DNA of 24,279 nt from a virus. The notes under the pieces are model-generated. The model saw nothing but the letters and a program-made list of their open reading frames with translations. It searched no databases and was not told where the DNA came from. Of the stretch, positions 6,291 through 24,279 are shown piece by piece (the first letter of the stretch is position 1; the number at the start of each line of letters is the position of its first letter). The stretch lies in the IMG/VR virus record IMGVR_UViG_3300042503_000036, positions 1 through 24,279 of that record; one strand, 5' to 3'. Made by a program: the position numbers and the translations under genes.

Positions 6291-6329
6291 CTATTTTAAC
6301 GGATTTTTTTTAAAAAAGTTTCAGAAAAT

Positions 6330-15435: not shown

Positions 15436-16323
15436 TTATTTATTTTTAAGTTGTTCTAATTTTCTTTGTGCCCATTCAATACCGGCATCTCCACCCCAAG
15501 CTAACCACATCAATCTGCCGCATCCATCGCCTAACTCCTTTTGTGAGTTTTGTCTGTGACGTTCAAAGGCAGCCATTCTGCTGATCGTTTCTTGAGATAT
15601 AGGTTCTCCGTTTGCTAATTGGTTTGCACGTTGTTTTCCTACCGGTGTGCCGCAAGATCCCCATCCGTTTTCAGCAGCCCAACGCAAAGCAATTTTAGCA
15701 TTTTCTTTAGCAGCTTTTGGATAGTCAGTATAAGATTCAAGTTTGATATCTAAGATCTCTTTTAAATACGCTATTACTTCGTCTTTTTCTTCTGTTTGTG
15801 CGCTCATTTCGTATTTATCAGCAAAGTAGCCTTCAATAGAAAATCCTTTAACTTCTCCGGCCTTTACTCGCTTCCAAATATCATCGTTGTTTACTTTCAT
15901 TGATATCATCCAAGTTCCTTTAGGTAAATCAAAACCATATAACTTAGATTTGTCAGTTTTAGGATCATCAATAATCCAGCTTTCAACTACTGACATACCA
16001 TCAATTTCTTTAGCGTGTTCTAACGTAGCATTGTTCTGATTAGATCGCATTAAGAACAACTCAGATGCCTTACGTACTGTATCTTCAGAAAAGAATATTT
16101 CCCACTCACGTTTCGTCTTTTCATCGTTACGATAAATCTTTTTGTTAGGCGTTAATGCTGGGCCCATCAAAATGCGCTTCTCTTGATCAACTTCTTTGAG
16201 TTGTACTTGGTGCTTATTCAAAGCAATAAAGTTTTCCTCAATGGCCGGAAATTCAACAACGCTTACCGCTTCGATCCCGTGCATTGGATCCTTCTCGTCA
16301 ATGATTAATTCTATTAAATCCAT
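15436..16323 (-). CDS. Prohead protease (XkdF/S78-like) with C-terminal Cys/Trp domain
   Basis: A 295-aa protein. Residues 1-170 match XkdF-like phage serine proteases: V-S-V-V-E-F-P-A-I (21-29), a likely catalytic His103 in T-L-E-H-A-K, V-V-E-S-W (112-116) and the nucleophile Ser162 in K-G-F-S-I-E-G. Residues about 198-293 form a second domain with Y-P-K-A-A-K-E-N-A-K-I-A-L-R-W, C-G-T-P-V-G (224-229), R-A-N-Q-L-A, and G-C-G-R-L-M-W-L-A-W-G-G-D-A-G (267-281). The protease matures scaffold and capsid in the procapsid, which fits its place before those genes. The second domain is conserved-looking but of unknown function, possibly a capsid-targeting or zinc-binding module. Confidence 0.75.
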   Translation of the reverse strand: MDLIELIIDEKDPMHGIEAVSVVEFPAIEENFIALNKHQVQLKEVDQEKRILMGPALTPNKKIYRNDEKTKREWEIFFSEDTVRKASELFLMRSNQNNATLEHAKEIDGMSVVESWIIDDPKTDKSKLYGFDLPKGTWMISMKVNNDDIWKRVKAGEVKGFSIEGYFADKYEMSAQTEEKDEVIAYLKEILDIKLESYTDYPKAAKENAKIALRWAAENGWGSCGTPVGKQRANQLANGEPISQETISRMAAFERHRQNSQKELGDGCGRLMWLAWGGDAGIEWAQRKLEQLKNK

Positions 16324-18186: not shown

Positions 18187-18334
18187 TTCTTATCACTTTA
18201 ATTTCTCGTTTAGCTTGTTTGAACGCCTTTCTAAAAGACGTATGTAATTTGTATTTACCTTTTGCAATTTCAATGTATTCTCCTTCTCCGTAGAAATCAT
18301 CTATTTGCAACATTGCTATTATTTGCTTTATCAT
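18173..18334 (-). CDS. Hypothetical 53-aa protein before tape measure
   Basis: The ATG at 18334 overlaps the TGA of the large tail protein (ATGA), and the stop at 18173 overlaps the tape measure start by 14 nt. The 53-aa basic product begins MIKQIIAMLQIDDFYGEGE and has a C-terminal amphipathic helix (S-F-R-K-A-F-K-Q-A-K-R-E-I). It fills the only gap in this tail segment and is coupled on both sides, so it is likely translated. It may be a small tail-assembly factor; no family is recognised. Confidence 0.58.
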   Translation of the reverse strand: MIKQIIAMLQIDDFYGEGEYIEIAKGKYKLHTSFRKAFKQAKREIKVIRNGGN

Positions 18335-21779: not shown

Positions 21780-22317
21780 TTTTCTTAATTATTTGGTCTA
21801 TTTGTTCGTTAAATAATTGCTCTGAATCTAATGCAAAAGATTTGATCAACTCATCGGGTAAATTCTTATAAGCTGCTTCAAATGGCTTTGTAAAAAACAT
21901 ACTGGGCCTAATTCCTTTATTATAAATTCCTCTTGTAATTAGAAAAGCGGTTGATTCATAACTCAAATACTTTCCTGTCTTTTTATCTGAAAATTGAAAT
22001 CTTTTTTGCTTTACCCATTTGTTAATTGCTTGTGTTAATCCACCCGGCCTTCCTGTTCCAGTTCCAAATTTATAAGGGCTATTAGGTGCTTTACTTGAGC
22101 TTGTTTTACCTTTTACTCCTAAATCTTGATAAACACCATAATCTGCCATACTAAACTCTAAAGAGAATGAGTTTTGACTTACGGTTATTTCTCCTTTGAT
22201 TGAATTGTATAAATTCTTTGTAACGTTCTTGTTGCTGTTAGTCAAGTTTCTTCTTGAAACACTAACAACGTGATTCCTAAATCTTTCTAAAGCCTTTTGT
22301 ACTTCCGTCTTTTTCAT
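21772..22317 (-). CDS. HK97 gp10-like neck / tail completion protein
   Basis: A 181-aa basic protein. An N-terminal helix (A-L-E-R-F-R-N-H-V-V-S-V-S-R-R-N-L) leads into L-Y-N-S-I-K-G and the beta strand F-S-L-E-F-S-M-A-D-Y-G-V-Y-Q-D-L-G-V-K-G. The Y-G-x-Y-Q-D-x-G motif is the hallmark of gp10/HK97-type head closure and tail completion proteins. The C-terminal half has I-R-P-S-M-F-F-T-K-P-F, also typical. These proteins form part of the neck ring joining head and tail. It follows the 150-aa gene with a shared base and overlaps the next tail gene by 8 nt. Confidence 0.75.
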   Translation of the reverse strand: MKKTEVQKALERFRNHVVSVSRRNLTNSNKNVTKNLYNSIKGEITVSQNSFSLEFSMADYGVYQDLGVKGKTSSSKAPNSPYKFGTGTGRPGGLTQAINKWVKQKRFQFSDKKTGKYLSYESTAFLITRGIYNKGIRPSMFFTKPFEAAYKNLPDELIKSFALDSEQLFNEQIDQIIKKNG

Positions 22318-22769
22318 TAACAGATAGTCATTTCATTAGGAACAACAATATCAAACGTCATAGCCCAACCTGCCAGATTGTTCTCAAAACGCTCTGAGAA
22401 TGGCTCTAAAGTGGCTTCATCTTCAATTACAACCTTAGCATCCCACAAGCTACCGGCTTTCATTAGTTTGTAAGCTCTGATAAGTACAGAATGCATTGCA
22501 TTTAGCGCATCTGTTTCGTTATCCATACCATAGAATAAATCCGTATCCTGCGCTTTGCTTAGATCAACTATATCCATTGCCATAATAGTTATATTGTAAC
22601 GTATTACAAACTCCTCAGCAGTTGAGTTGTTGATCATAATATGAACCAACGGAAAGATAGTTTTCTTGTTTAAGTCAATAGAAAATATATCTCCTTGCGT
22701 TATTTCGTTAACTACTGGATCCGAAGCAAAATGCGCTCTTAAGGTATCTATGGTTGTAAAGTAATTCAT
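22317..22769 (-). CDS. Tail terminator / completion-like protein
   Basis: A 150-aa protein with an N-terminal helix (F-T-T-I-D-T-L-R-A-H-F), strands F-P-L-V-H-I-M-I-N-N-S and V-I-R-Y-N-I-T-I-M-A-M-D-I-V, the D-x-x-x-x-T-D-x-F-Y segment, a long helix (D-A-L-N-A-M-H-S-V-L-I-R-A-Y-K-L) and a final strand W-A-M-T-F-D-I-V-V-P. This alpha/beta layout fits tail terminator proteins of siphophages. The ATG at 22769 forms ATGA with the stop of the -1 frame of the chaperone gene, linking the two. The assignment is from pattern and neighbours. Confidence 0.65.
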   Translation of the reverse strand: MNYFTTIDTLRAHFASDPVVNEITQGDIFSIDLNKKTIFPLVHIMINNSTAEEFVIRYNITIMAMDIVDLSKAQDTDLFYGMDNETDALNAMHSVLIRAYKLMKAGSLWDAKVVIEDEATLEPFSERFENNLAGWAMTFDIVVPNEMTIC

Positions 22770-23038
22770 CGTCTTAATCTATCAAGTTGTCTTTTTTCAA
22801 TTTCGTTTTTCTGCTGTTCAAAAGTGAGAAATGTGAGGCATTTAGTAAGTCTAAGTTTGGCAACCTCATCGAACTTTGTAACGTCTCCTTTAGCGAGTGC
22901 ATATAAGCTTTGATACCATCCCCATTGCTTTGCAAATTGAGCTGTTTCGCTAAAATCGTCAACGTTTCCGGATTCTTCTTGATCTCCTTCTCCAAATAAT
23001 TGAGGATAGCCGGCATTAATTCGTTTCCTAAATTCCAA
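22766..23038 (-). CDS. Tail assembly chaperone, -1 frame C-terminal extension
   Basis: Read in the -1 frame after the slip site, this segment adds 90 residues to the first 165 of the upstream frame, making a 255-aa fusion. Its core Q-W-G-W-Y-Q-S-L-Y-A-L-A-K-G-D-V-T-K-F-D-E-V is a strong family-like motif of phage tail chaperone extensions, followed by a helical L-T-F-E-Q-Q-K-N-E-I-E-K tail. Codons are A/T-ending like the rest of the genome. The frame has no ATG; only a TTG at 23062 could serve as an independent start. Its TGA overlaps the next ATG (ATGA), the junction style used throughout the window, which favours this as the native end of the gene. Confidence 0.7.
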   Translation of the reverse strand: MEFRKRINAGYPQLFGEGDQEESGNVDDFSETAQFAKQWGWYQSLYALAKGDVTKFDEVAKLRLTKCLTFLTFEQQKNEIEKRQLDRLRR

Positions 23039-23532
23039 AAAAAAAGCGATGCGGCAATACAAACATCAAGCGGAGCATTTTTCATTAACTCCTCCATTTC
23101 TGGCTTTGGATCATACTCGGCAATCTGATATTTATTGCCTTGTTTCTTTGTGATCGGCCTGTAAAGTTTAGCCATTGCTTTGTGAAATGATTGCCAGCTA
23201 TTTAAAGTGCTTTCTAAATCTACGTACTCAGCAAATGTGATCTCTTCAAGTTCCGGAATAAATCCAAACTCAATATCTCCGATCTTAAACGTAGGTTTAA
23301 ACTTTGGCTTTACATCAAACAATGTAATAAAATGAGCAACCAACTCCTGTAAAGACGTAAGCTTTATTTTTACAATATCCTTTAGCTGAATATCGCAAAA
23401 GATCTCAATCATCTTCTGGGCCACAAATTCCTCATCATTGGATTTTTCCTGCATATCAATATAAGCTTGGTAACGCTTTAACGTTATTTCACTTAGATCA
23501 GTAGGTACATTTATTTTTAAATCCATACTCAT
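22774..23532 (-). CDS. Tail assembly chaperone, zero-frame product (252 aa)
   Basis: A 252-aa protein starting MSMDLKINVPTDLSEITLKRYQ. Residues 1-162 form a conserved-looking alpha/beta domain with D-E-E-F-V-A-Q-K-M-I-E-I-F-C and G-F-I-P-E-L-E-E-I-T-F-A-E-Y-V-D-L, a pattern seen in chaperone-type tail proteins of Bacteroidetes phages. At codons 163-166 (CTT TTT TTT TGG) lies a T9 run, 23045-23037. Beyond it the zero frame stays open for 87 codons, but its third positions become richer in G and C, unlike neighbouring genes. A second frame becomes the better coding frame there. The chaperone role is inferred from frameshift layout and tail-gene context. It would coat the tape measure during tail assembly. 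Confidence 0.7.
   Translation of the reverse strand: MSMDLKINVPTDLSEITLKRYQAYIDMQEKSNDEEFVAQKMIEIFCDIQLKDIVKIKLTSLQELVAHFITLFDVKPKFKPTFKIGDIEFGFIPELEEITFAEYVDLESTLNSWQSFHKAMAKLYRPITKKQGNKYQIAEYDPKPEMEELMKNAPLDVCIAASLFFWNLGNELMPAILNYLEKEIKKNPETLTILAKQLNLQSNGDGIKAYMHSLKETLQSSMRLPNLDLLNASHFSLLNSRKTKLKKDNLID
23038..23044 (-). promoter_or_regulatory. -1 ribosomal frameshift slippery heptamer
   Basis: In the chaperone zero frame the heptamer is T TTT TTT (X XXY YYZ form) inside a T9 run, followed by TGG. A one-base backward slip joins residue 165 to the -1 frame. I see no obvious strong stem-loop just downstream; the stimulator, if any, was not identified by eye. Confidence 0.65.
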
Positions 23533-23537
23533 ATAAC

Positions 23538-23705
23538 TTATTTTTTAGTTTGTTGTTGCACGTAGTTATACGCTTCACGTAGCATTATTAAGTGAACTCG
23601 CAACTTCTGGGGGTTATTAAAGATTATTTGTATCCGTTTTCCTGTACGGTGTTGTATGTAAGCCTCGACTACATAGCACATTGCTCTTGTGTAATCTTCA
23701 GCCAT
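23538..23705 (-). CDS. Hypothetical 55-aa protein between terminase and chaperone
   Basis: An ATG at 23705 shares its base with the TAA that closes the displaced terminase frame (TAATG). It opens a 55-codon frame (MAEDYTRAMCYVVEAYIQHR...) that stops at 23538, six bases before the chaperone start. The product is basic and helical (K-L-R-V-H-L-I-M-L-R-E-A-Y-N-Y-V-Q-Q-Q). The coupling to the terminase end in the displaced frame is itself evidence for where terminase originally stopped. The function is unknown. Confidence 0.62.
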   Translation of the reverse strand: MAEDYTRAMCYVVEAYIQHRTGKRIQIIFNNPQKLRVHLIMLREAYNYVQQQTKK

Positions 23706-23848
23706 TAGCGAATGTTATAAGTACCGTAGTTTTTCTTTAGGCCTAACGTTTCCATTTCGTGATATCTCAAAGCATCTATGGCGTGATCCAATCCACCGGC
23801 AGGGTTTCTGCCTCTGTTTCCTGACCTGTCAACATCCCAACAGTAATT
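23705..23848 (-). pseudogene. Displaced C-terminal tail of terminase large subunit (-1 frame)
   Basis: In the frame one base behind the main terminase frame, 47 residues read as the expected family C-terminus: N-Y-C-W-D-V-D, then P-A-G-G-L-D-H-A-I-D-A-L-R-Y-H-E-M, ending N-Y-G-T-Y-N-I-R and TAA at 23705. This holds the third catalytic Asp cluster. About five family residues between N-L and N-Y (usually I-K-E-L-R) are missing, so a short deletion, not a single-base slip, explains the break. Confidence 0.75.
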
Positions 23849-24279
23849 AGGTTTGTACTTTGTTTGGTTACTAAATACTCTTGCTGTTGCATAACATCAA
23901 TACCGTAGTTAATTGAATCTTTGCCTTTCGTTACTCCTTTAATCGTCTTTCCGTAGCGTTTAATCTCATCAATACTTTTTGGTTCTGAACTATCAGCATA
24001 AATAATAACGCCAGACGGTAGTGCTTTGGCAATATCAGAGTTAAGCATTCCATTACGGTAAACTAATTCGTTTACTATTCGCTTTCCATTCCAATTATAA
24101 ACCTCAATGATTGCTGTTGGATCATTAGTATATCCAAAGTCAAGTCCTATTCCAACCAAACGTGCATCTTGCGGTACTTTATCAATTTCTTTCCAATTCT
24201 CAAATATTACGCCCTCAAGCATACCTACTTCTCCTAATCCATACACTCGCCACCAATTAGCCCAATATGAACTCGTAGC
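23776..24279 (-). CDS. Terminase large subunit, C-terminal nuclease part, frame-disrupted and cut by window edge
   Basis: The frame is open through the right window edge; the first visible residues are ATSSYWANWWRVYGLGE. The nuclease domain is clear: G-I-G-L-D-F-G-Y-T-N-D-P-T-A-I with the first catalytic Asp, and V-I-I-Y-A-D-S-S-E-P-K-S-I with the second. After S-T-N-L (about residue 143 of the visible part) the frame yields 24 residues (ending V-D-W-I-T-P) unlike the family and stops at 23776. The third acidic motif (D-H-A-I-D-A) lies in the -1 frame just below. As sequenced, the nuclease would lack it. Terminase cuts and translocates phage DNA into the prohead, and the ATPase part is outside the window. 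Confidence 0.8.
   Translation of the reverse strand, partial: ATSSYWANWWRVYGLGEVGMLEGVIFENWKEIDKVPQDARLVGIGLDFGYTNDPTAIIEVYNWNGKRIVNELVYRNGMLNSDIAKALPSGVIIYADSSEPKSIDEIKRYGKTIKGVTKGKDSINYGIDVMQQQEYLVTKQSTNLITVGMLTGQETEAETLPVDWITP

Follow-up and report, generated by a model that had tools for sequence, protein, structure and literature searches.

A conserved -1 slip run and a long overlap under apparent selection in both frames of a putative G/GT-type tail assembly chaperone gene of Bacteroidota phages

The slip gene and its surroundings

The window, i.e., the whole stretch of viral DNA that was analysed (24,279 nucleotides; positions 1 to 24,279 of IMG/VR virus record IMGVR_UViG_3300042503_000036), carries on its minus strand a gene that contains a run of nine T and is referred to here as the slip gene (Table 1). 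Codons 163-166 of its 252-aa frame read CTT TTT TTT TGG, and re-reading of the sequence confirmed the predicted slippery heptamer T TTT TTT at codons 163-165. A -1 slip leads into 90 further codons (LEFRKR...WGWYQSLYALAKGD...RLRR) that end with TGA at 22768-22766, resulting in a product of 165 + 90 = 255 aa with the WGWY motif in its tail, as had been proposed. After the slip, the 87 codons of the 0 frame and the 90 codons of the -1 frame overlap nearly completely. The stop codon of the -1 frame forms the predicted ATGA junction with the next gene, whose ATG begins at 22769; this junction is common to most of the long-tail clades described below.

Table 1. Features at and downstream of the slip gene (window coordinates)
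Feature	Position	Strand	Remarks
0-frame product, 252 aa	22774..23532	-	ORF; composed of 165 aa of shared N-domain and 87 aa of 0-frame tail
Shared N-terminal domain, slip codons included	23038..23532	-	Homologous in about 240 loci; AF2 pLDDT mostly 70-90
T9 run, with the heptamer T TTT TTT at 23044-23038 inside	23037..23045	-	9-11 T in all relatives
-1-frame tail, 90 codons + stop; T-like domain with WGWY motif	22766..23038	-	Conserved in the -1 frame
0-frame tail, 87 codons + stop, apparently overprinted on the -1 tail	22774..23037	-	Suppressed fourfold sites; frame open in all long-clade members
Next gene, 150 aa; ATG overlaps the -1 stop as ATGA	22317..22769	-	ORF; PHROG 30964
Tape-measure-like protein, 613 aa	16345..18186	-	phrog_3336 (tail length tape measure), E 2.2e-06

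Codon log-odds were +24.3 bits for the -1 tail, +1.9 bits for the 0-frame tail and -99 for the third frame. Codon bias thus favours the -1 frame, in agreement with the original prediction, and the 0 frame is nonetheless coding-like. Runs of at least eight T occur at two places only in the window, versus 16.7 expected matches (T or A runs counted), the second one (at 6304) being located between listed minus-strand genes. The tape-measure-like gene is separated from the slip gene by the five genes originally given, provided that a short ORF near 18190-18330 is included.

Between the terminase gene and the slip gene, a short conserved ORF (MAEDYTRAMCYVVEAYIQHRTGKR...; 23538-23708, minus strand) was found, which is also present in the related loci L002-L007. 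The gene of the terminase large subunit (23776-24279, minus strand) loses its frame close to the C-terminus owing to an 11-base deletion in comparison with L002 and L003 (...NLIKELRAYCWDVD...); this loss is either an assembly fault or a natural lesion. An XkdF-type phage serine protease is encoded at 15436-16323 on the minus strand (Pfam Peptidase_S78_2, E 9.8e-18), and the head genes of the window phage come after the tail genes.

Conservation of the T run and nature of the frame change

Searches with the N-domain returned 80 close viral loci, 80 more distant and 80 further ones, with some loci repeating contigs. The domain was also found in the Nonlabens phages P12024L and P12024S (29% identity) and in three host-labelled Bacteroidota MAG contigs, including Flavobacteriaceae and Winogradskyella. 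In all of the about 240 related loci, which derive from Bacteroidota phages, the N-domain ends in 9-11 T, with no run below nine and some extended to T10 and T11. The heptamer T TTT TTN is in frame in every scored locus, and the WGWY tail follows in the -1 frame in every scored relative with the sole exception of L137, so that run and frame are retained in homologues as anticipated. T9 is likewise present in L002, a separate assembly of this virus that encodes an identical protein. Elsewhere in the N-domain, 64% of the Phe codons are TTT, and TTT is the codon at the slip site. As judged from this comparison, the heptamer is kept in frame and appears to be under selection, and the gene would yield two products from one start, with a programmed switch of frame close to where the first domain ends.

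A run length uniting both halves of the gene in one frame was not seen in L002, the Nonlabens phage records, the three MAG contigs or over 200 other loci. In L137 (5-730), a T11 run fuses the N-domain and the WGWY tail into one 242-aa frame; since this sequence lies near a contig end, the fusion is possibly an indel artefact. Homologues with a single uninterrupted frame, which the original prediction had named as contrary evidence, were represented among the loci by L137 only. BFVD contains several viral proteins of 226-267 aa (e.g., A0A516L5A8, A0A516L611 and A0A6J5N0W0) to which the N-domain model and the T-domain model both match, and these distant relatives may be single-ORF fusions or indel artefacts.

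Concerning the mechanism, ribosomal -1 frameshifting at the T9 run is favoured over transcriptional slippage, by analogy with lambda gpG/gpGT (reviewed in PMC5009743) and other known G/GT systems, which slip at the ribosome (PMC5009743). Alternatively, RNA polymerase might slip on T9 and add an extra U to some transcripts, resulting in two mRNAs that are both translated normally; we regard this as possible, if doubtful. It would agree with a run that never falls below nine T in the loci and extends to T11, because programmed transcriptional realignment typically takes place on homopolymers of about eight or more (PMC3711429). It would further agree with the finding that no downstream RNA structure was detected at the slip site in 29 representatives (mean z of +0.3 for 50 nt and +0.17 for 80 nt, pseudoknots being outside the scoring). 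Such a stimulatory structure frequently accompanies ribosomal -1 frameshifting but is not required for it. The phase of the heptamer, however, is maintained in all loci, and the two flanking T are attributable to hydrophobic residues, i.e., Leu, Val, Ile or Phe with a middle T and Leu or Phe in the -1 frame.

Length of the 0-frame tail and selection on both frames

The 0-frame tail after the slip comprises 16 and 25 codons in the P12024L group, about 46-62 codons in a broad middle group, and 70-79 and 79-101 codons in the remaining clades, including the window with 87. On a tree of the N-domain and the -1 tail, these length classes require only four changes, with a support of 100/97 for the longest-tail clade. 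The shifted product of the window is not clearly longer than the unshifted one (255 versus 252 aa), whereas the respective lengths in P12024L are 231 and 175 aa. Since the 0-frame tail of the other clades is clearly shorter, near-equal isoform length is the trait of one clade and not of the family; the original proposal of two isoforms of nearly the same size therefore holds for the window and does not extend family-wide. Judging from the sequences, the conserved -1 tail is probably ancestral and the 0-frame tail looks to have been overprinted on top of it. Because clades with all of these tail lengths coexist, the way in which an overprinted protein segment lengthened can be traced on the tree.

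For the analysis of selection, 55 independent pairs were picked on N-domain identity only, 42 of which have long overlaps. In the long overlap, the substitution rate was 0.53 at sites synonymous in both frames, 0.159 at those synonymous in the -1 frame only, 0.065 at those synonymous in the 0 frame only and 0.052 at those synonymous in neither, with an N-domain synonymous rate of 0.314. These rates imply strong constraint on the -1 frame and moderate constraint on the 0 frame. Beyond overlap codon 15, fourfold sites of the -1 frame differed in 107 of 962 cases (0.111), compared with 469 of 1912 (0.245) in the N-domain and 657 of 2177 (0.302) in the next gene. The overlap/N-domain ratio of 0.45 has a 95% interval of 0.36-0.53, and fourfold divergence was below that of the N-domain in 42/42 independent pairs (Wilcoxon p 1.6e-8). 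No fourfold suppression was observed in the single-coding T region of the clade with short 0-frame tails (14/59 versus 35/155, from only 3 independent pairs). In the middle clade, the next gene and the single-coding part are slow, too.

Codons 1-15 after the slip (22994-23037, minus strand) are strongly constrained in both frames, as evident from 2 differences at 194 fourfold sites, and doubly synonymous sites in this stretch still differ at 0.66. Since these sites diverge freely, the constraint concerns the amino acids of the 0 frame, and RNA-level constraint as the cause of the low divergence was ruled out.

Whether the 0 frame is open by chance was assessed in a simulation in which the -1 protein was held fixed and synonymous codons were redrawn from family usage in 10,000 trials. 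For the window, about 1 of 10,000 trials left the 0 frame open as far as it is observed. Among eight long-tail sequences, seven gave 0 to 5 such trials and the eighth gave 32, leading to the rejection of chance openness for the long clades. For the middle clade, p was about 0.01-0.06. The short clade revealed no openness signal, its 0 frame often being open by chance in the simulation. No use was made of the depletion of stop-creating changes inside pairs, since freedom from stops is what defines the overlap in the first place. The comparison of relatives thus shows a conserved slip run, with both frames open and both under selection, and supports truly dual-coding overlaps in the long-overlap clades, as originally proposed. 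By the same measures, constraint on the 0-frame tail is strong in the first about 15 codons and weaker but measurable beyond.

It might be argued that the 0-frame tail has no protein function and is open so that unshifted ribosomes end at the next start, with translational coupling, or cover the mRNA. Among 65 sequences of the clade with the longest tails, 44 have their 0-frame stop 4 nt ahead of the following ATG, which the -1 stop overlaps; short 0-frame tails go with a gap of 33-130 nt between the -1 stop and the start of the next gene. Both findings would fit such coupling. Yet coupling needs only the absence of stops, whereas 0-frame amino acid changes that create no stop are also suppressed, about twofold, and the 0-frame stop of the middle clade is mostly 60-94 nt before the next start. 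We consider coupling without protein function unlikely. The 0-frame tail as a second protein module is favoured, as its amino acid changes are suppressed.

Putative identity and role of the two products

The slip gene belongs to PHROG 32199, annotated as 'unknown', with residues 5-172 of the 0-frame product covered at E 1.3e-16. Weak matches to phrog_166 ('tail protein') were obtained for 30 of 66 members (best E 0.0005). In the family libraries, neither a Pfam family nor a named TAC family matched the slip gene, and the PDB fold search gave no match; VIA-align rows for the 0-frame product with Z under 5.2 were rejected as helical look-alikes. The BFVD search yielded many uncharacterised phage proteins and one named TAC, which matched weakly (E 0.64).

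In the AF2 model of the 0-frame product, the N-domain is fair and is followed by a weak helical stretch at residues 166-221 and a disordered end; pLDDT of the 0-frame tail is about 64, with the last 31 residues below 50. For the -1 tail, a pLDDT of 79.9 and three confident helices were obtained (residues 31-89 at about 82-92). This model suggests that the -1 tail is an extra helical T domain of the shifted product, its T identity being assigned by analogy.

The lambda tail assembly chaperones gpG/gpGT were reportedly described by Levin in 1993 and Xu in 2004. Like the slip gene, lambda G/GT has one start and two C-termini via a -1 change at a slippery heptamer, with a T-like domain that the unshifted product lacks and a location on the same strand upstream of the tape measure gene. 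In contrast, slipping lengthens the product in lambda, where the unshifted frame terminates shortly past the slip site, while here both have 252-255 aa and about 87 codons would be dual-coding; besides, no sequence or solved-fold kinship was detectable, and the slip gene does not adjoin the tape measure gene. A clearly longer shifted product is usual for G/GT and was not taken as defining. Phage P2 gpE/E+E' is likewise a tail gene with a -1 slip, at a heptamer rich in T, but this heptamer is T TTT TTG and the shifted product is clearly longer.

The Nonlabens phages P12024L and P12024S share the N-domain, T9 and the WGWY tail in the -1 frame (P12024L_40, annotated as hypothetical). Unlike in the window, the 0 frame of P12024L stops 25 codons past the slip, which corresponds to the usual G/GT layout. 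In its record (L082:8001-8695), the -1 frameshift from P12024L_40 into the frame of P12024L_41 is unannotated and the 231-aa fusion is absent. A programmed frameshift in a TAC gene is also found in the actinobacteriophage set of SEA-PHAGES, where the distance from the slip to the 0-frame stop averages 26 nt (PMC10885494) as opposed to 261 nt in the window gene.

Based on the architecture and the tape-measure-like gene downstream, the best reading is a G/GT-type tail assembly chaperone of a Bacteroidota (probably Flavobacteriia) phage, whose unshifted isoform gained a long overprinted tail; we regard this as quite probable. Of the originally predicted programmed -1 frameshift in a chaperone, the conserved -1 change stood, and the word chaperone is inferred from the architecture, position and T-domain look rather than from a database or solved-fold match. 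A frameshifted phage protein of another kind, e.g., a neck or packaging-linked factor, would be consistent with the lack of a TAC family or fold match and with a gene that directly follows the terminase region, five genes from the tape measure gene. A G/GT architecture, i.e., an N-domain of about 160 aa with a helical -1 extension of about 85 aa, argues against it, as does the location on the same strand as, and upstream of, the tape-measure-like gene, and we judge such a factor to be improbable.

For the chaperone, we infer expression of both isoforms, the efficiency of the shift and the role of the 0-frame tail as follows. At T TTT TTT within T9, a minority of translation would shift to -1, via tandem tRNA slippage or a transcript with an extra U. 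Unshifted translation would give the N-domain with the 87-aa 0-frame tail, and shifted translation the N-domain with the conserved helical T-like domain. By analogy with lambda, the abundant 0-frame isoform would coat the tape measure protein, and tail tube protein would be recruited via the T domain of the rarer -1 isoform. As the 0-frame tail spans the whole T-domain region, about 87 codons code twice.

G/GT frameshifting is already known in long-tailed phages, where in described cases unshifted reading terminates shortly past the slip; frame choice in the slip gene exchanges two tails of similar size. In a literature search with most subscription papers outside its coverage, a slip gene with such a long dual-coding tail was not found described. 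We lean towards the view that in a large clade of Bacteroidota phages the unshifted half of G/GT was overprinted into a second full-length protein, with frame choice swapping selected C-terminal modules from the same 80-100 codons instead of adding one. The comparison also identifies the widespread family PHROG 32199 as a frameshifted pair, the T half of which is missed or called as a separate gene, which matters for the annotation of Bacteroidota phages.

One ordinary ORF, with T9 due to an indel error or to a recent mutation, is hardly conceivable. Such a reading could draw on L137, the BFVD proteins matching both models and the terminase deletion, but the run is T9-T11 and the T domain lies in -1 throughout the independent assemblies, the Nonlabens phage P12024L and the MAG contigs. 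Dual-frame constraint would not come from an error, and sequencing error was rejected because, with run and -1 tail conserved in independent sources, neither error nor chance accounts for them.

In Elizabethkingia phage TCUEAP1 (L166:2164-2706), a single-frame protein of 180 aa directly after the terminase was found to contain a faint T-like segment (LSGGDILKYDAI; E 0.6).
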